The position numbers and the translations under genes were made by a program. From the NCBI RefSeq assembly GCF_041107455.1, contig NZ_JBGBPY010000001.1, positions 2,356,001 to 2,420,000 on the forward strand: a stretch of 64,000 bases of DNA, in the 5' to 3' direction. Positions 44,589-57,649 of this stretch are shown piece after piece. The notes under the pieces are model-generated. The model was not told the DNA's origin. It searched no databases and worked only from the letters and a program-made list of their open reading frames with translations. Origin of the DNA: Rhodanobacter humi. GTDB taxonomy: Bacteria > Pseudomonadota > Gammaproteobacteria > Xanthomonadales > Rhodanobacteraceae. Position 1 is the stretch's first letter. Each line of letters begins with the position of its first letter.

Positions 44589-44742
44589 CCCTTCTCCCTC
44601 CGGGAGAAGGGGCCCGCAGGGCGGATGAGGGTACGGGCGAAGCGTGGCGTTGCGTCATGTCCGAACCCTCACCCCAATCCTCTTCCTCGCTCCTCGAAGC
44701 AAGGCCATCCGTGGCCCTTCTCCGCGTCCAGCGGGAGAAGGG
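44589..44742. repeat. Palindromic repeat element between gspE and gspF
   Basis: A 154-bp mosaic bounded by two hairpins: CCCTTCTCCC-tcc-GGGAGAAGGG (44589-44611) and a similar imperfect one near 44715-44742. The middle shares the GAGGGTACGGGCG and CCGAACCCTCACCC blocks with the copy inside hrpB. It fills most of the 186-base gap between the gspE stop and the gspF start in an otherwise overlapping operon, so it is an insertion that may form RNA structure between the two genes. Confidence 0.8.
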
Positions 44743-45997: not shown

Positions 45998-46519
45998 ATG
46001 CCTGTAGCGATGAGTATCGGAAACCGGTCGCCGGAAACAGTCGGCGCGAATGGCTTGCAAAAACCTGCCGACTCCAAGAGCCCATTCCCGATTTCCTGTC
46101 GCGGCTATCGCCGCGACAGGAGGGGCGCGAGCGGCTTCACCCTGCTCGAAATGCTCGCGGTGATCGTGCTGATCGGCGTCATCGGCGCGGTGGTGGTGAC
46201 CCAGGTCGGCAAGAACATGGACAAGGGCAAGTACGGCGCGGGCAAGGCCCAACTGGTGACCCTGAGCCAGAAGATCGAGAACTACGCGCTGGACAACGGC
46301 AGCCCGCCGCCGCAGCTGGAGGATCTGGTCAGCAAGCCCGCGAACGCGCCGAACTGGCAAGGCCCGTATGCGAAGGAATCCGAACTGAAGGATCCCTGGG
46401 GCCATGCCTTCGGCTACAAGGCGCCCGGCGACCACGGCAGCTTCGACCTGATCTTCTTCGGCCGCGACGGCAAGCCCGGTGGCGACGGCTACGACAAGGA
46501 CGTGGGCAACTGGCAATAA
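45998..46519 (+). CDS. gspG: Type II secretion major pseudopilin GspG/XpsG with extended leader
   Basis: A 173-residue precursor. The prepilin peptidase site G|FTLLEM lies after residue 46, followed by the hydrophobic helix and a GspG C-domain (DPWGHAFGYKAPGDHGSFDLIFFGRDGKPGGDG, the calcium-binding loop region). The leader is very long; most GspG leaders are 6-12 residues. ATG 45998 has a good AGGGAG site, and the extra 35-40 codons contain a REP-like hairpin, so a repeat has probably entered the leader without breaking the frame. Cleavage by XpsO/PilD should still yield normal GspG. Confidence 0.9.
   Translation: MPVAMSIGNRSPETVGANGLQKPADSKSPFPISCRGYRRDRRGASGFTLLEMLAVIVLIGVIGAVVVTQVGKNMDKGKYGAGKAQLVTLSQKIENYALDNGSPPPQLEDLVSKPANAPNWQGPYAKESELKDPWGHAFGYKAPGDHGSFDLIFFGRDGKPGGDGYDKDVGNWQ
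46095..46120. repeat. REP-like hairpin inside gspG leader
   Basis: Perfect 11-bp stem CCTGTCGCGGC-tatc-GCCGCGACAGG. It is translated as part of the GspG leader (residues about 33-42) and ends 9 bases before the mature gspG codons' FTLLE segment region. Sequence and shape fit a REP palindrome. Confidence 0.75.
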
Positions 46520-46523
46520 ATCC

Positions 46524-47033
46524 ATGCGCCTTGCCTCGCCATGCGTGCCCCGATTCCTTGCCACACAGGCGAGGGGGGCGTGGCGACGCGGGCGCGGCTT
46601 CACCCTGCTCGAAATGCTGGTGGTAATCCTGCTGATCGGCATCGCGGCGGCGGCGGTCGCGGTGTCGGTGACCCAGGGGCTGGCCAGCGCGCGCATCAAT
46701 GCGGCCAGCGGCGAGATCGCCGCGGCGCTGCGCGCCACCCGCGCGCAGGCGATCGTGCAAGGCAAGGAACAGCATTTCGACGTGAATGTCCGCAGCGACA
46801 CGTACAGCGATGCGAAGCGGAAGGACGTGCGCCTGCCCAAGGGCCTGAAACTCTCCGTCACCAGTGCGCTGGAAGATCGCCCGGACCAGCACACCGGGCG
46901 CATCCGTTTCTTCCCCGACGGCAGTTCCACCGGCGGCCACATCACCTTGGCCAGCGGCCGCCGCCAGTGGCGCATCAACGTGTCGTGGCTCACCGGACAG
47001 GTCGCGGTGGTGGACCAGGTGGTGGCGCGATGA
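46524..47033 (+). CDS. gspH: Type II secretion minor pseudopilin GspH/XpsH
   Basis: A 169-residue precursor with a 25-residue basic leader, cleavage site G|FTLLEMLVVILLIGIAAAA and a beta-rich C-domain ending SWLTGQVAVVDQVV. Four bases separate it from gspG's stop; its TGA overlaps the gspI ATG. ATG 46524 has no strong Shine-Dalgarno, so it probably depends on translation of gspG. Confidence 0.9.
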   Translation: MRLASPCVPRFLATQARGAWRRGRGFTLLEMLVVILLIGIAAAAVAVSVTQGLASARINAASGEIAAALRATRAQAIVQGKEQHFDVNVRSDTYSDAKRKDVRLPKGLKLSVTSALEDRPDQHTGRIRFFPDGSSTGGHITLASGRRQWRINVSWLTGQVAVVDQVVAR

Positions 47034-47440
47034 AGCACCAGCACGGCTTCTCACTGCTCGAAGTGATCGCCGCGATGCTGCTGCTGGCGATCGCGTTCGC
47101 CGCGCTGATGAAGGTGGCCGGCGGCGCGATCGCGCTGTCGCGCAACGCGGCGGCGCACGACGAGGCGGCGCTGTGGGCGCGCAGCCTGCTCGACAGCGCT
47201 TTTGTCACGGAGCCGGTGGCGCCGGGCAGCCGCAGTGGCCGCTTCAATGATCGCTATCGCTGGACGCTCGACGTCACGCCGTGGCAAGTGCCCGGCACGC
47301 CGCCCGGCGGCGGCGGCGCGCTGCAGCTGTACCGGCTGGATCTGGCGGTGCAGTGGGGCAGCGCCGCGCATCCGCAAACGGCGCACTTCGACACGCTGCG
47401 GCTGGGCCAGCCGCAGGCGCCGGCGGGTGGTGCGCCATGA
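47030..47440 (+). CDS. gspI: Type II secretion minor pseudopilin GspI/XpsI
   Basis: A 136-residue precursor with the shortest leader of the set, MKHQHG|FSLLEVIAAML. Length and the C-domain (RYRWTLDVTPWQ, LYRLDLAVQW) fit GspI, part of the I-J-K tip complex. ATGA overlaps at both ends (with gspH and with the gspJ start at 47437). Confidence 0.92.
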   Translation: MKHQHGFSLLEVIAAMLLLAIAFAALMKVAGGAIALSRNAAAHDEAALWARSLLDSAFVTEPVAPGSRSGRFNDRYRWTLDVTPWQVPGTPPGGGGALQLYRLDLAVQWGSAAHPQTAHFDTLRLGQPQAPAGGAP

Positions 47441-49038
47441 ACACGCATCGCGGTTGCCCGATTTGCGCGAGGTTCGAGGCGGTATCGGACACCTGTCGGT
47501 ATCCGACTCCCTTCACCTACTTGCGGGATGCGACTCCTCCCTCTCCCCCAACAGCTTCATCGTTGGGAGAGAGGGTTGGGGTGAGGGGGGCTTTTGCTTC
47601 TGCCTGTTGGCAAGTTTCAAAGCAGTTTCGTGCGCCTACCGGCGCCCGAGTTACTTCTCCTTTGCTTGTCCAAAGGAGAAGTAACCAAGAGGAAACGACA
47701 CCCCGATGGCGCGCCCTGCGCCCATCCATGGGCTCCGGGTACGCGGGCGGGTTCCGGGGTTTTCCGACGGCACCTCCGTGTGCCGGCGGAAAACTGGCTC
47801 GCATCCCTGCGAGCCATCCTGCGGACTTTCCTTCACCCGCCCGCCGCGCCATAGGGGCCCCGGGTAGAGCAGCGCGCTCCTGCGTGCAGAAGCAACGGCA
47901 CCCCACCCCAGCCCTCCCCTGCATGCAGGGGAGGGAGCTACAGCCAGCAAGCTCGCGACGCTTCGCTTTTGCCTTTGCTCGTGCTCTTGCTTCTGGCGCG
48001 CACGATGCGCGCCTGCTCTTCCGGGCCCCCTCGGCGGCGGTGAGCCGTGGACGAGAAGGCCGTGCAGCGGGCGTTGCCATGGAGGGCAACGCCTTTTCGC
48101 GCGGGCAGGAGCCCGCTCGAAAAGCCCGGCCACGGCTCACGGACTTTCCGTGCATGGATGCACGGAAAGCGCCGCCGCGGGGTGTCGTTTCCTCTTGGTT
48201 ACTTCTCCTTTGGACAAGCAAAGGAGAAGTAACTCGGGTGCCGACAGGCGTCCGAAACCGCTTTGAAACTTGCGAGAGCGTAGAAGCCCCCCTCACCCCA
48301 ACCCTCTCCCCCAACGGACAAACTGTTGGGGGAGAGGGAGCGCATGCAGTCCGATACCGCGGGCGCGCAAACCGCGCCGCCGGCTTCACTCTGCTCGAAG
48401 TGCTGGGCGCACTGGCCCTGCTGGCGCTGCTGCTGGTGGGCGTGTACGGCGGCGTGCGCAGCGCGATCCACGGCGTGCGTTCCGGCAGCGCGGCGATCGC
48501 GCGAGTGGATCAGATCGGTTCGGCCCAGCGCTTCCTGCGCGGCGAGCTGGCGCAGGCACTGGCGCAGCCGATCGCGCGCACCGACAACGGCCGGCCGATC
48601 TACTTCGCGGGCAGCGCGCACGAGATGCGCTACGTGGCGCCGCTGCCGGGCTACCTCGGCAAGCTGGGCCCGCAACTGCAGGTGCTGAAGCTGGTCGACG
48701 ACGGCAAGGGCGGCCAGCGGCTGGAACTGCAGCTGGCGCTGCTGCCGCCGGACGGCCAGCCGCCGAAGCCGCTGGGCGAACCGCAGGTGCTGCTCGACCA
48801 CATCAAGGAGGGCGGCTTCAGCTATCGCGGCCGCGATGCGCAGAACCGCGAGCTGCCATGGAGCGCGGACTGGGCCGACGGCAGCGGCCTGCCCCAGCTG
48901 GTGCGCATCCGGCTGCAGCCGCACGGCGGCTACGGCTGGCCCGAGCTGGACGTGCCACTGCGGGTCGATCCCGCGGCCACGGTCGGCCGCATCGGCCTGC
49001 TGCCCGGCAGCGTGCTGCCGCCGGGAGGTGCGCGATGA
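47437..49038 (+). CDS. gspJ: Type II secretion minor pseudopilin GspJ/XpsJ, interrupted in its leader by a repeat element
   Basis: The native start survives as ATG 47437, overlapping the gspI stop in the same ATGA arrangement used throughout the operon. The true GspJ body begins at codon 48382 (RAAG|FTLLEVLGALALLALLL) and is full length (about 219 residues: RTDNGRPIYFAGSAHEMRYVAPLPG, PLRVDPAATVGRIGLLPG). Between them lie about 315 codons contributed by an inserted repeat element, and the frame stays open throughout, giving a nominal 533-residue protein where about 220 is usual. The product could be made as an oversized precursor, or from a GTG at 48239 that has AAGGAG supplied by the repeat, giving a 48-residue leader. 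Function may be impaired. Confidence 0.8.
   Translation: MNTHRGCPICARFEAVSDTCRYPTPFTYLRDATPPSPPTASSLGERVGVRGAFASACWQVSKQFRAPTGARVTSPLLVQRRSNQEETTPRWRALRPSMGSGYAGGFRGFPTAPPCAGGKLARIPASHPADFPSPARRAIGAPGRAARSCVQKQRHPTPALPCMQGRELQPASSRRFAFAFARALASGAHDARLLFRAPSAAVSRGREGRAAGVAMEGNAFSRGQEPARKARPRLTDFPCMDARKAPPRGVVSSWLLLLWTSKGEVTRVPTGVRNRFETCESVEAPLTPTLSPNGQTVGGEGAHAVRYRGRANRAAGFTLLEVLGALALLALLLVGVYGGVRSAIHGVRSGSAAIARVDQIGSAQRFLRGELAQALAQPIARTDNGRPIYFAGSAHEMRYVAPLPGYLGKLGPQLQVLKLVDDGKGGQRLELQLALLPPDGQPPKPLGEPQVLLDHIKEGGFSYRGRDAQNRELPWSADWADGSGLPQLVRIRLQPHGGYGWPELDVPLRVDPAATVGRIGLLPGSVLPPGGAR
47539..48338. repeat. Composite inverted-repeat element inserted in gspJ
   Basis: The ends are related inverted arms of about 165 bp. 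Within them 47645-47704 and 48179-48238 are a perfect 60-bp inverted repeat. The outer part of each arm is itself a hairpin: left CCCTCTCCCCCAAC/GTTGGGAGAGAGGG (47539-47575), right the perfect 14-bp CCCTCTCCCCCAAC/GTTGGGGGAGAGGG (48302-48338). The centre holds further palindromes, including a perfect 24-bp one at 47912-47935. Both strands are open for long stretches, but no transposase or recognisable protein is present. Best described as a non-autonomous, MITE-like or REP-composite element of xanthomonad type; no target duplication was identified. Confidence 0.88.
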
Positions 49039-52433: not shown

Positions 52434-54857
52434 ATGTCCCGCCAGCACACCCTCGCGCGTTCGCGGCCGCTTGCCCGCCTTCGATCCGGCCTGCCGTGCG
52501 TCGTCGCGCTGGCGGCGCTGGCCCTGCTGGCCGGTTGCGCCAACCTGCCGCCACAGCCCGACGACGCCTCGCTGCAGCGCGAGGCGATGGCCGGCACCCG
52601 TGCGCCGGTGCCGGCGCCGCTGCCGCTGAACAACGGCCAGACCACCACCACGAACGCCGCGGTGCTGCCGCAGATCAGCCGCGGCAGCGGCCAGTTCGTA
52701 CGGCCCACCGCGCTGGCCACGCCGCGCCCGGCGGTGTCCGGGGCGAACGGCGTCACCTTCAACTTCGAGAACCAGCCGGTGCAGGCGGTGGTGAAGGCGA
52801 TCCTCGGCGACCTGCTGAAGAAGAACTACACCATCGTGCCCGGCGTGCAGGGCAACATCTCGTTCTCCACCGCCGAGCCGGTGGACGCCAGCCAGGCGCT
52901 GCCGATCCTGGAGACCCTGTTGTCGTGGACCAACAACGCGCTGGTCGAGCGCAACGGCAGCTACGTGGTGCTGCCGGCGAAGGAGGCGGTGGGTGGCAAC
53001 CTGGTGCCCAGCCTGCGCGCGACGGCGCCCGCCGGCGGCCTGCAGGCGCGGCTGTTCCCGCTGCACTACATCGCCGCCAGCGAGATGCAGAAGCTGATCA
53101 AGCCGTTCGCGCGGCCCGACGCCGTGCTGCTGGTCGATCCCGCGCGCAACGTGATCGTGATGTCCGGCACCCCGGAGGAGCTGGCGAACTACCAGCGCAC
53201 CGTGCAGACCTTCGACGTGGACTGGCTGCGCGGCATGTCGGTGGGCGTGTTCAACCTGCAGCACGCCGACGTGGAACAGCTGATGCCCAAGCTGGACGAG
53301 ATGTTCGGCTCCAAGGGCGACACCCCGCTGGCCGGCATGCTGCGCTTCATCCCGATCAAGCGCACGAACGCGCTGGTGGTGATCAGCACCCAGCCGAACT
53401 ACGTGGACGAGGTGGGCAGCTGGATCGCCCGCATCGACCAGGGCGGCGGCAACCAGCCGCAGCTCTACGTGTACGACGTGCGCAACATCAAGGCCTCCGA
53501 CCTCGCCAAATACCTGGCGCAGATCTACGCCAGCGGCGGCAGCGGTGGCGGATCCGGTGGCGAAGTCGGTCCCGGCCTCAGTTCCGGCACGCTGGGCAGC
53601 GCCGAGAACGCGCGCGGTTCGGCCAGCGGCATGGGCAGCACCGCCGGCAGCTTCGGCAGCAGCAACACCACGGGCGGCGGCCTGGGCGGCCTCGGTGGTG
53701 GCAACGGCATCGGCGGCATCGGTAACGGCGGCAGCAACGGCTACGGCAACAACGGCGGCAACGGCACGGGCGGCCTGCAGGGCGGCGCGGCGTCATCCAC
53801 CAGCTTCGGTAATGCCAACGCGGCCAGCCAGGACCAGCAATACGTCTCGCAGGACGGCAGTATCCGCATCGGCTCGGTGGACGCGAACAACCAGTTGCTG
53901 GTGCGCGCGCGGCCCTCGCAGTGGGCCGAGATCGAGGCGGCGATCAAGCGACTGGACACCATCCCGCTGCAGGTGCAGATCGAGACGCGCATCCTCGAGG
54001 TGAACCTCACCGGCCAGTTCCAGTTCGGCGTGCAGTGGTACCTGCAAGGCCTCTCCGGCAGCACCGGCAGCACGGCCGATGGCAGCTTCAAGCCCGGTCA
54101 GCCCGGCAACCCCCGCCAGATCGCGCTGGGTGGTGGCGGCAACGCCTACGGCGGCGAACCGCTTTTCTACTCCTTCCTCAACAGCAAGATGCAGGTGGCG
54201 GTGCGCGCGATGGAGGACAGCGGCAACACCAAGACGCTGTCCGCGCCCTCGCTGGTGGTGATGAACAACCAGCCGGCGATGATCCAGGTGGGCAACAACG
54301 TGCCGGTGAACCAGAGCTACATCACGCCTGGCCTGGGTACCGGCGGCACCACCATCGGCACGCTGGGCCAGGTGCAGTACCTCACCACCGGCGTGATCCT
54401 CAAGGTGGTGCCGCGGGTGAACCCCGGCGGCCTGGTCTACCTCGACGTCAGCCAGGAAGTGAGCAGCCCCACCACCCAGGACAAGAACGGCAACTACACC
54501 ATCGCCGACCGCAGCATGCAGACCCAGGTGGCGGTGCAGAGCGGCCAGACCGTGCTGCTCGGCGGCCTGATCCAGCAGAACGAGAGCACCGACGACAACG
54601 GCGTGCCCGGCCTCAACCGCATCCCGTTCCTCGGTCGCCTGTTCGGCACCACCAACCGCAAGCGCGACCGCACCGAGCTGATCGTGCTGATCACCCCGCG
54701 GGTGATCCGCAGCAGCGAGGAAGCGCGCCAGATCACCGACGACTACCAGCACGGCTTCGAATCGCTGAAGCCGTTGCAGGCCGCGCCGGCAGCGAACATG
54801 GCAACGCCGGCAGTGGCACCGGCGGGTGGAGCGCAGACGGCGCCGCTGCAGCATTGA
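52434..54857 (+). CDS. gspD: Type II secretion secretin GspD/XpsD, lipoprotein
   Basis: An 807-residue outer-membrane channel subunit. The lipobox LLAGC follows the signal peptide, the N0-N3 domains run to about residue 510 (VTFNFENQPVQAVVKAILGDLL; QLYVYDVRNIKASDLAKYLAQIYA), and the secretin core begins around 512 (QVQIETRILEVNLTGQFQFGVQW) with VPVNQSYITPG, VPRVNPGG and QTVLLGGLIQQ. A glycine/asparagine/serine-rich insert of about 90 residues (about 365-455) splits N3, longer than in many GspD proteins. Last gene of the operon, four bases after gspN. Confidence 0.95.
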   Translation: MSRQHTLARSRPLARLRSGLPCVVALAALALLAGCANLPPQPDDASLQREAMAGTRAPVPAPLPLNNGQTTTTNAAVLPQISRGSGQFVRPTALATPRPAVSGANGVTFNFENQPVQAVVKAILGDLLKKNYTIVPGVQGNISFSTAEPVDASQALPILETLLSWTNNALVERNGSYVVLPAKEAVGGNLVPSLRATAPAGGLQARLFPLHYIAASEMQKLIKPFARPDAVLLVDPARNVIVMSGTPEELANYQRTVQTFDVDWLRGMSVGVFNLQHADVEQLMPKLDEMFGSKGDTPLAGMLRFIPIKRTNALVVISTQPNYVDEVGSWIARIDQGGGNQPQLYVYDVRNIKASDLAKYLAQIYASGGSGGGSGGEVGPGLSSGTLGSAENARGSASGMGSTAGSFGSSNTTGGGLGGLGGGNGIGGIGNGGSNGYGNNGGNGTGGLQGGAASSTSFGNANAASQDQQYVSQDGSIRIGSVDANNQLLVRARPSQWAEIEAAIKRLDTIPLQVQIETRILEVNLTGQFQFGVQWYLQGLSGSTGSTADGSFKPGQPGNPRQIALGGGGNAYGGEPLFYSFLNSKMQVAVRAMEDSGNTKTLSAPSLVVMNNQPAMIQVGNNVPVNQSYITPGLGTGGTTIGTLGQVQYLTTGVILKVVPRVNPGGLVYLDVSQEVSSPTTQDKNGNYTIADRSMQTQVAVQSGQTVLLGGLIQQNESTDDNGVPGLNRIPFLGRLFGTTNRKRDRTELIVLITPRVIRSSEEARQITDDYQHGFESLKPLQAAPAANMATPAVAPAGGAQTAPLQH

Positions 54858-54893: not shown

Positions 54894-57491
54894 ATGAGTC
54901 CCGCCGTTCCCAGCTTCCCGATCACCCCGCTGCTGCCCGAGATCCGCGCGTCGCTCGAAGCGACGCCGCGGCTGGTGCTGGAGGCGCCGCCTGGTGCGGG
55001 CAAGACCACCCAGGTGCCGCTGGCCTTGCTCGATGCGCCGTGGCTGGATGGCCGGAAGATCGTGATGCTGGAACCGCGCCGCATCGCCGCGCGCGCTGCC
55101 GCGCAGTTCATGGCACGGCAGTTGGGCGAGGAGGTGGGGCAGACGGTGGGCTATCGCATCCGCTTCGAGTCGCGGGTGGGCGCGACCACCCGCGTCGAAG
55201 TGGTCACCGAAGGCATCCTCACACGGCTGATCCAGGACGATCCCGAGCTGACCGGCATAGGCGCGATCCTGTTCGACGAATTCCACGAGCGGCATCTCGC
55301 CGGCGATCTCGGTGCCGCGTTGGCGCTGGACGTGCAGGCCACGCTGCGGCCCGAGCTGCGCCTGGTGGTGATGTCCGCCACGCTGGACGGCGAGCGCATC
55401 GCGCGCTGGCTGGATGCACCGCGCATCACCAGTCCCGGCCGCAGTTTTCCGGTGCGCATCGAGCACCCGTCCGCTCGCGCGCAGGAGAGCATCGAGCACC
55501 AGCTCGCGCGTGTGGCGAAGCAGGCGCTGGCGGAGAGCGACGGCGACGTGCTGGTCTTCCTGCCGGGGCGGCGCGAGATCGCGCGGGCGCAGGCGGTGCT
55601 GGAAGAAACCCTCTCCCTTCGGGAGAGGGTGGCCGAAGGCCGGGAGAGGGTACGGGCGGAGCGTGTTGTCCAAACTTCGCCGAACCCTCACCCTCGATCC
55701 CTCTCCCAGAGGGAGAGGGAAGAAAAAATCGAGATCGTGCCGCTGCACGGCGAACTCTCGCTCGCCGAACAACAGCATGCGTTGGCGCCGGCCGAGCCGG
55801 GCACGCGTCGCATCGTGTTGGCGACCAACGTGGCCGAATCCAGCGTCACCCTGCCGGGCATCCGCGCGGTGATCGATGCCGGCCTCGCGCGCGAGCCGCG
55901 CTTCGATCCGAACTCCGGCTTCACCCGGCTGGAAACTGTCGCCATCTCGCAGGCTTCGGCCGATCAGCGCGCGGGCCGCGCAGGGCGCGTGGCGGAGGGC
56001 ACGGCGTATCGGCTGTGGCCACAGAGCAAGCGGCTGGAAGCCGCGCGTACGGCGGAGATCGCGCAGGTGGAACTCTCCGGTCTTGCGCTGGAACTCGCAG
56101 CCTGGGGCAGCAACGCGCTGCCGTGGCTGGACGCGCCGCCACCCGGCGCGCTGGCACAGGGGCGCGAACTGTTGATGAATCTCGGCGCGCTGGATGCGGA
56201 CGGCCGCATCACCGCGCTGGGCCGGCGCATGCTGGCGCTGGGCGCCACGCCACGTCTCGGCGCCGCCGCGTTGCGCGCGTCGGAGCCATTGCGCCCACTG
56301 ATCGCCGATCTGCTCGCGCTGATGGAGGCGCGCTCGCCGCTGCGCGGCGAGCAGGGCCGCAGCGACGACTTCCGCATGCGCGTGGCCGCGCTGCATGCCT
56401 GGCGCGACCGCCGCGGCCACGGCGCCGATGGCGGTGCGCTGGCGGCGATCGAGCAGGCCAGCAAGGGCTGGCGTCGGCGCCTGGACGTGCGCAGCGCCGC
56501 CAGCGGCACGCCCGACAGCCACGCGGTGGGCGACCTTCTGCTGCACGCCTTCCCCGACCGCATCGCGCGCCGCGACGAAGCAAACCCGTTGCGCTACACG
56601 CTGGCGAATGGCCGAGGCGCACGCCTGCACGACAACACCGCGCTTTTGGGCGAGCCGTGGCTGGTGGCGCTGGATCTGCGTTTCGAGGCGCGCGACAGCC
56701 TGATCCTCGCCGCCGCACCGTTCGATCCGCGCGTGCTGGAACGCGACTACCCGCAGCGTTTCGTGCGCGAGCGCGTGCTGCGCTGGAACGAAGCGCGCGA
56801 CGCGGTGGAAGCGTTCGAGGAACGCCGCTATGCCGCGATCGTGCTGGAACGCCGCAGCGTGCCGGTGCAGCCGGAAGACGCGCTGCCCGCGCTCCTCGCC
56901 GCGATCCGCAGCAAGGGGTTGGACGCGCTGCCGTGGAGCGAACACGCGCGTCGCCTGCGCCTGCGCATCCGGGCCTTGCGCGGCTGGATGCCCGAGCTTG
57001 GGCTGCCCGATGTTTCCGACGCGCAACTCCTCGCCACGCTGGACGACTGGCTGGCGCCGTATCTCGCCGGCAAGCGCCGACTCGATGCGCTGGATGCGGA
57101 GGAGCTTTCGCAGGCGCTGTCGGCATTGCTCGACCACGCGCAGCGGCAAGCCCTGGACGCGCAGGCGCCGGATGCGCTGACCGTGCCCAGCGGCCAGACG
57201 CGCCGGCTGGAATACGCGCCCGATGCGCCGCCGGTGCTGGCGGTGAAGTTGCAGGAACTGTTCGGCCTCGCGGACACTCCCCGCGTGGGCGCCGGCCGCG
57301 TACCGGTGACCTTGCACCTGCTTTCGCCCGCGGGCCGGCCGATCCAGGTGACACAGGATCTGAAAGGCTTCTGGGAGCGCACCTATCCCGAAGTGAAGAA
57401 GGAATTGAAGGGGCGTTACCCGCGCCACCCCTGGCCCGACGATCCGTGGAGCGCCACGCCCACGCATCGCGCGAAGCCGCGGGGAAGCTGA
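54894..57491 (+). CDS. hrpB: ATP-dependent helicase HrpB with repeat-derived insertion
   Basis: An 865-residue DEAH/RHA-type helicase. Motif I APPGAGKTTQVP (about residues 31-42), Ia EPRRIAARA, motif II DEFH (DEFHERH), III SATLDG, motif V TNVAESSVTLPGI, VI QRAGRAGRV, and the HrpB-type C-terminal domain (ELFGLADTPRVG, LLSPAGRPIQVT) are all intact. Between AQAVLEET and IEIVPLHGELS lie about 40 residues (239-280) rich in Arg and Glu, beginning LSLRERVAEGRERV, that are encoded by a palindromic repeat and are not expected in the family. Cellular role in bacteria is unclear. Starts 37 bases after gspD. Confidence 0.93.
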   Translation: MSPAVPSFPITPLLPEIRASLEATPRLVLEAPPGAGKTTQVPLALLDAPWLDGRKIVMLEPRRIAARAAAQFMARQLGEEVGQTVGYRIRFESRVGATTRVEVVTEGILTRLIQDDPELTGIGAILFDEFHERHLAGDLGAALALDVQATLRPELRLVVMSATLDGERIARWLDAPRITSPGRSFPVRIEHPSARAQESIEHQLARVAKQALAESDGDVLVFLPGRREIARAQAVLEETLSLRERVAEGRERVRAERVVQTSPNPHPRSLSQREREEKIEIVPLHGELSLAEQQHALAPAEPGTRRIVLATNVAESSVTLPGIRAVIDAGLAREPRFDPNSGFTRLETVAISQASADQRAGRAGRVAEGTAYRLWPQSKRLEAARTAEIAQVELSGLALELAAWGSNALPWLDAPPPGALAQGRELLMNLGALDADGRITALGRRMLALGATPRLGAAALRASEPLRPLIADLLALMEARSPLRGEQGRSDDFRMRVAALHAWRDRRGHGADGGALAAIEQASKGWRRRLDVRSAASGTPDSHAVGDLLLHAFPDRIARRDEANPLRYTLANGRGARLHDNTALLGEPWLVALDLRFEARDSLILAAAPFDPRVLERDYPQRFVRERVLRWNEARDAVEAFEERRYAAIVLERRSVPVQPEDALPALLAAIRSKGLDALPWSEHARRLRLRIRALRGWMPELGLPDVSDAQLLATLDDWLAPYLAGKRRLDALDAEELSQALSALLDHAQRQALDAQAPDALTVPSGQTRRLEYAPDAPPVLAVKLQELFGLADTPRVGAGRVPVTLHLLSPAGRPIQVTQDLKGFWERTYPEVKKELKGRYPRHPWPDDPWSATPTHRAKPRGS
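55609..55719. repeat. Palindromic repeat element inside hrpB coding sequence
   Basis: Hairpin CCCTCTCCC-ttc-GGGAGAGGG at 55609-55629, a middle with GAGGGTACGGGCG and CCGAACCCTCACCC, and hairpin CCCTCTCCC-aga-GGGAGAGGG at 55699-55719. The hairpin-to-hairpin span is 111 bp, exactly 37 codons, so hrpB remains in frame. Related to the element between gspE and gspF. Confidence 0.88.
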
Positions 57492-57505: not shown

Positions 57506-57649
57506 CCGTTCGCGCTGAGCGTAGCTTGCGTTAGCAAGCGCAGTCGAAGCGCCGCCGTGACAGCCCTTCGAGTTCCTCGCTCCTCAGAACGTGGCCATCC
57601 GTGGCCACTCCCCGCGTCGGCCCTTGGGGCCTGCGCTCAGGGCGAACGG
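57506..57649. repeat. Inverted-repeat element after hrpB
   Basis: Ends CCGTTCGCGCTGAGC (57506-57520) and GCTCAGGGCGAACGG (57635-57649) pair at 14 of 15 positions. Between them is GC-rich sequence with the block CTCGCTCCTC...GGCCATCCGTGGCC, also present in the gspE-gspF repeat. No start site or ORF is supported; the element may end transcription from both hrpB and the opposite-strand SIMPL gene. Confidence 0.72.

Follow-up and report, generated by a model that had tools for sequence, protein, structure and literature searches.

The hrpB gene of Rhodanobacter humi was found to carry a small palindromic repeat, very probably as a passenger in a permissive loop of the second RecA-like domain (RecA2), where it would be translated as part of the protein. 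The element is real and ordinary in kind. What is unusual is the repeated use of one protein loop by several different elements.

The element and its position in HrpB

The window, the whole stretch of 64,000 nucleotides analysed here, comes from a genome of 4.15 Mb in the Rhodanobacter/Fulvimonas group (G000; the other G codes denote genomes of relatives and L codes denote fetched loci). The features considered are the following.

44590 to 44674, plus strand: second copy of the same repeat family, 76% identity over 85 nt (sequence comparison)
54894 to 57491, plus strand: hrpB, encoding the ATP-dependent DEAH/RHA-type helicase HrpB, 865 residues, intact frame (ORF, TIGR01970, Pfam, PDB alignment)
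55609 to 55719, plus strand: palindromic repeat element, a double hairpin of 111 bp, in frame, at about residues 239 to 276 of HrpB (sequence, fold, BLAST)
55609 to 55629, plus strand: 5' hairpin, CCCTCTCCC-TTC-GGGAGAGGG (sequence)
55630 to 55698, plus strand: interior of the element, the two halves of which also pair in the predicted fold (sequence, fold)
55699 to 55719, plus strand: 3' hairpin, CCCTCTCCC-AGA-GGGAGAGGG, beginning exactly 90 bp (30 codons) past the start of the 5' hairpin

The reading frame at 54894-57491 scored 1032.4 bits against TIGR01970, above the curated cut-off of 546.15, and is thereby assigned to HrpB; the Pfam domains HrpB_C, Helicase_C, DEAD and HA2_N were found in it. 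Upstream, a secretin-like ORF (52434-54857) ends 36 bp before hrpB, and four prepilin-like GF(T/S)LLE starts are present at 46125-48443; we take these adjoining features to be, probably, a type II secretion gene cluster. After the second palindrome copy comes a 46-bp sequence (44683-44728), found again with 83% identity at 57573-57618, just downstream of hrpB, and the intergenic repeats at 44590-44728 and 57573-57618 look as if they were composites.

Each 21-bp hairpin of the element has a perfect 9-bp stem. The 136 nt from 55600 to 55735 fold with −75.7 kcal/mol, compared to −50.3 (sd 4.2) for dinucleotide shuffles, corresponding to a z score of −6.0 with none of 200 shuffles as good. BLAST of the element against its own genome returned at least 66 matches at E ≤ 10 (40 of 49 candidates scored) and at least 33 at E ≤ 1e-5 (40 of 48 candidates scored), so that the element is a repeat and not a chance resemblance. 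Together with the intact frame over 865 codons, this bears out the original prediction of a palindromic repeat in frame within HrpB. Among the remaining full-length copies in the own genome the best has 83% identity, and shorter pieces reach 91% over 55 nt. Twelve of 15 genus genomes match the element at E ≤ 1e-5, with 2 to at least 45 matches each, the numbers for the richest genomes being floors with 40 candidates scored. Presence as a palindrome in many genomic copies is a feature of the RPEs discussed below. MITEs are recognized by terminal inverted repeats together with a target-site duplication; the element is inverted-symmetric, and a clear duplication was not seen against short-linker relatives.

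Two other identifications were discarded. For the region 55400-55900 all eight Rfam matches stayed below the gathering score (E 0.012 to 0.82) and are attributed to chance. The idea that the element is kept free of stops in all frames was likewise dropped: in 18 full copies 4.9 of six frames were open, compared to 3.8 in dinucleotide shuffles, a modest excess, and two of the 18 fell below their own shuffles. A plasmid search with the element gave only six Azospirillum records at 74 to 76% identity.

E. coli HrpB is the best PDB sequence match (6eud, 6heg), with 6eud also the top fold match. It is the same helicase without the segment: the 6eud alignment runs to residue 237 and resumes at 279, and the stretch left unaligned spans 6 residues in E. 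coli HrpB and 41 here. An AlphaFold model built from 44 sequences had a mean pLDDT of 88.3 and a pTM of 0.73, with block means mostly above 80. In this model a helix that starts at 226, after a strand at 218-222, continues into the insert. Block means then drop to 56 and 51 across residues 241-260, values for residues 259-275 stay below 50, and the next strand is found at 278-284. The model thus shows the segment as an appendage of low confidence attached to a core of high confidence. Following the usual layout of DEAH helicases, we take the strand and the helix with FLPGRREI to be motif IV, the start of RecA2. Since the insert comes after this motif, it is inside RecA2, where it separates the motif IV helix from the conserved strand that follows (IEIVPLHG). 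Its earlier placement ahead of the second RecA domain is corrected accordingly by the 6eud alignment and the model.

The 111-bp span does equal 37 codons in frame, as had been proposed, but the net gain in length is smaller: 30 codons relative to G009 and G012, 32 relative to G010 and about 35 residues relative to E. coli HrpB. A gain of 37 codons is obtained only if the entire palindrome is counted, because some relatives retain a half-hairpin-like linker.

Occupation of the linker in relatives

The linker DNA between FLPG and PLHG was compared in 12 genus genomes, the own one included; the other two genus genomes with an HrpB match had a short linker (G001) and a partial gene (G011). Three of the 12 (G006, G010 and G014) have a linker of 99 to 102 nt. 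In G009 and G012 it measures 108 nt and includes a single half-hairpin, and in the remaining seven it measures 192 to 240 nt. An insert of RERV type is common to G000 and G003, and within both hairpins the differences between these two are confined to the loops. A similar element in a different phase (PSP..GRG or near) occupies the linkers of G004, G008 and G013, and a REP dimer of GTCGGG type those of G002 and G005. G000 and G002, near sisters in HrpB (94% identity, support 83), thus have different elements. Related elements are translated as LS..RER, PSP..GRG and PLP..GEG, so there is no fixed reading phase. The difference between linkers of 198 and 108 nt is 90 nt, which is the spacing of the two CCCTCTCCC arms; a deletion between these arms would therefore preserve the frame.

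Conservation of the segment in HrpB proteins that lack the repeat, named in the original prediction as evidence against it, was not seen: among the linkers compared, a matching peptide occurred only on repeat DNA (G000, G003, G132 and, decayed, L088), and the short-linker relatives were without it. Neither a clear target-site duplication nor an exact insertion boundary was found against these relatives.

A survey of 147 family genomes with a RecA2 query without insert gave 117 unbroken matches, 20 matches split at the linker and 10 that were unclassifiable. Of the 137 family genomes whose HrpB match could be classified, 20 hence have a linker insert. Read as DNA, each of the 20 split linkers proved to contain an open insert, and seven genus codes are represented among them. 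At order level (299 genomes), at least 11 genomes of family code f2 showed, among the matches listed, a three-piece match like the split ones.

For the history of the site an HrpB tree with 123 tips was calculated by a quick method and with the linker left out. Its sequences came from 80 named, 8 congener, 30 family and 18 fetched loci, a set enriched for inserts, from which one known duplicate, three unparsed and nine identical entries were dropped. Thirty of the 123 HrpBs have an insert, and the tree requires a minimum of 18 switches between filled and short linkers, not separable into gains and losses, with starred branches forcing 15 of them. When the labels are shuffled the mean is 27, which indicates that inheritance is also at work. 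Filled and short linkers were found side by side in the sister pairs L173/L073 (in the Dyella part of the tree), L088/L083 and L138/L100 (two Luteimonas), and in the Rhodanobacter pair of L063 (filled) and L062 (short, with a half-hairpin).

The palindromic nature of the inserts is reflected by a perfect stem of at least 8 bp (loop of at most 10) in 26 of the 30 long inserts, where 2.6 were expected from dinucleotide shuffles, and in 4 of the 93 short linkers. The four long inserts without such a stem are L088, which is a decayed RERV type, L107, L179 and L182, so that a palindromic nature is not demonstrated for every insert at the linker. Fifteen or more extra residues were present at the linker in 30 of 123 rows and in one or two rows in each of five other HrpB alignment blocks, a contrast of which only the direction is safe in a set enriched for linker inserts. 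A second site in HrpB, near residue 778, holds palindrome-type peptides of about 50 residues in L178 and L184 (genus code g24).

Divergence of the insert and alternative accounts

For pairs among G000, G003 and G132 the insert gave pN of 0.07 to 0.09, pS of 0.06 to 0.09 and ratios of 0.87 to 1.09, on a small base of 40 codons with 8 to 11 differences per pair, two to three of them synonymous. The rest of hrpB in the same pairs gave pN of 0.085 to 0.098, pS of 0.37 to 0.45 and ratios of 0.19 to 0.24; the synonymous divergence of the insert is 4 to 6 times lower. With a pN/pS of about 1 at few sites, no constraint on the insert peptide is seen in these pairs. Of the view that repeats create new peptide segments, the insertion in an open frame is retained, and a sign of selection on the peptide is missing. 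The low pS does not fit an old insertion followed by neutral drift and calls for exchange between lineages or for selection at the nucleotide level.

G132 has a different genus code, and its hrpB is 93 to 94% like that of the same-genus L150 in windows 200 to 700. In the first window over the insert G132 is nearer to G000 (0.91 compared to 0.87), and in no other window does G000 come out ahead of both relatives compared. The values are almost level in the second window over the insert (0.88 compared to 0.87 and 0.89). The bases beside the G132 insert match G000 and G012 and not the relatives of G132 itself. These small numbers suggest short-tract exchange as the simplest account of the low insert divergence. 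Whether the RERV-type insert of G000, G003 and G132 is one cassette that moved between species by homologous recombination in hrpB appears to us evenly balanced. Such a transfer would explain why the three inserts are 91 to 93% identical in DNA and the remaining gene 82 to 83%, and it agrees with the behaviour of G132 in the first window, with its flanking bases and with the lower identity (83%) of the best other full-length copy in the own genome, where shorter pieces reach 91% over 55 nt. The small number of codons and differences, the near tie in the second window and the unresolved branching of G003 in the HrpB tree speak against it, and constraint at the nucleotide level would give a similar pattern. 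Exchange is compatible with the insert being a passenger, since it concerns how three genomes come to share it.

A more far-reaching account appears rather doubtful to us. Here the RecA2 linker would be a natural cassette site, at which palindromes from several unrelated families are acquired, replaced by one another, trimmed in frame and transferred between species as interchangeable peptide cassettes, the loop being hypervariable and the helicase conserved, and this would perhaps in part be favoured at the DNA or mRNA level.

The strong fold, the restriction of G000/G003 hairpin differences to the loops and the low synonymous divergence would also be expected if the hairpin were regulatory in the hrpB mRNA, for example through ribosome pausing or as a substrate of HrpB, and were retained for that reason. 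This is improbable, however, as 93 of the 123 sampled HrpBs are without a long insert, the same repeat family occurs in unrelated genes and four of the 30 inserts have no strong stem. It is more improbable by far that the segment is an ancient, native component of HrpB with a chance resemblance to the repeat: the half-hairpin-like linkers of the congeners G009 and G012 could be read in this way, but a plain short linker is found in E. coli and in most sampled Dyella, Luteibacter, Xanthomonas and Stenotrophomonas HrpBs, and the four sister pairs combine filled and short linkers. Hairpins are hard to sequence, yet an assembly or sequencing artefact is hardly credible with a frame intact over 865 codons, nearly the same insert in G003 and G132 and open inserts in 20 family genomes.

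We favour a passenger in a permissive loop. A small palindromic repeat has very probably landed in the hrpB loop that joins the motif IV helix to the next RecA2 strand and would be translated as a segment of HrpB, which presumably folds and works with this segment as a flexible appendage. Selection on the host genes would eliminate frame-breaking insertions and those in the core, leaving in-frame passengers in permissive loops as the copies seen. Points that weigh against this account are the low synonymous divergence of the insert, the failure to find a clear target-site duplication or an exact boundary, the absence of a Y1_Tnp/RAYT gene from G000 and the four inserts that have no perfect 8-bp stem. 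The loop may later be reshaped by an in-frame 90-bp deletion between the CCCTCTCCC arms, by other palindromes or by short-tract exchange between species.

Related insertions, candidate movers and known systems

From 106 copy intervals in G000, G003, G008 and G013 (two Lhr copies being counted twice), 13 distinct in-frame insertions in 9 protein families were obtained; the calls were made by a codon-position G+C filter, by which true insertions may be missed, and loci were fetched for 16 of 26 matches in G003, 24 of 44 in G008 and 20 of 41 in G013. By NCBIfam name the proteins are HrpB, IleS (two genomes), ValS (two), UvrD, an Lhr-type helicase (two insertions), dihydrolipoyl dehydrogenase, a CopA-type multicopper oxidase (two), MetH and ArgE, the Lhr-type and MetH names resting on scores below the curated cut-offs because these genes were cut by the loci. 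PDB alignments are broken at the insert in IleS (321|390 compared to 259|286), in UvrD (475|517 compared to 470|475) and also in the Lhr-type helicase, and in dihydrolipoyl dehydrogenase the insert separates the lipoyl domain from the dehydrogenase. RPEs, too, are inserted in frame in conserved genes that are unrelated to each other, and the proposed likeness to Rickettsia palindromic elements, as a genomic palindromic repeat in frame in unrelated proteins, is upheld.

Searches of 69 genomes, the own one included, with queries containing the insert gave unbroken matches in 7 of 58 matched genomes for IleS and in 31 of 68 for UvrD, both being upper estimates of sharing. The IleS and UvrD inserts thus look shared in the family too, which weakens the notion of HrpB as the sole special gene, and from these matches HrpB does not appear to be the only linker hit several times. 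The Lhr-type helicase of G000 (L024, 1-3114) apparently contains three repeat-derived peptides, two matched by BLAST and a third (LPLPAVGGEGWGEG...) spotted by eye. In ValS of the congeners G008 (L219) and G013 (L250) a repeat peptide is seen at the same place.

No protein-coding mover for the CCCTCTCCC element was found in G000. A RAYT was considered for this role and rejected, as no Y1_Tnp/RAYT gene was found in G000; RAYT is present in 8 of 15 genus genomes. In the stretches compared at 8 of 13 genus RAYT matches, from seven congeners, the CCCTCTCCC palindrome was absent, two of the eight loci showing a lone 8-mer. RAYT was found in six of seven genus genomes with at least 12 repeat matches and in two of eight with fewer, an association that is suggestive only, with kinship not corrected for, counts of the richest genomes that are floors and three of the 15 genomes less than 90% complete. 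At the window hairpins no GTAG or CGTC tag was found, the flanks being GAAA and TGGC, and CGAT and AAGA. The hrpB linker of G002 presents a different picture, with hairpins GTCGGGATTCATCCCGAC and GTCGGGCTGAAGCCCGAC followed by CTAC, and the RAYT gene of the same genome (L268, 909-1602) has GTCGGG hairpins with a CTAC/GTAG tag on both sides. The G002 linker element, which bears a GTAG-type tag and whose REP type also flanks a RAYT gene, has the properties of a GTAG-REP, and a resident mover for this GTCGGG-type element is plausible from the sequences.

Protein-coding palindromes are best known from Rickettsia. In the part of a review drawn on here (PMC10969869), the RPEs of Ogata and colleagues (2000, 2002) are palindromic repeats in frame in unrelated genes. 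By this description the window element resembles them as a many-copy palindrome in frame in unrelated conserved genes. It differs in lineage and also in phase: RPEs have one conserved peptide per family, with a fixed phase, and several phases occur here. The ERIC/RU sequences of enterobacteria, in the sections used of Delihas 2007 (PMC2759123), are small mobile sequences with open frames inside genes, and by description the element is like them in these respects. In the portions of PMC3733652 considered, GTAG- and CGTC-tagged intragenic REPs are short and frequently dimeric palindromes located within genes in several species, including UvrD/Rep helicase, RNA helicases (O. terrae) and tRNA synthetases (X. 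oryzae and two others); no transposase is associated with CGTC REPs there, insertions are argued to be possibly neutral in flexible linkers or loops, and the authors doubt that hits on repair genes are due to chance. Relative to these portions, in-gene palindromes in helicases and tRNA synthetases are a shared feature, as is the GTAG-type REP dimer at the HrpB loop of the congener G002. The window element differs as an untagged 111-bp double hairpin, being set apart by the tag and not by a family alignment, and one HrpB loop here takes different elements in different phases. A literature search, with most subscription journals outside its coverage, returned no publication on the HrpB insertion site.

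In summary, an environmental group comprising Rhodanobacter, Fulvimonas, Dyella and their kin has coding palindromes in tRNA ligases and helicases. One enzyme loop in this group has taken up different elements many times over, which provides natural insertion replicates at a single site. This makes it directly testable how a protein tolerates, retains or discards random peptides, and whether short repeats seed new protein segments.
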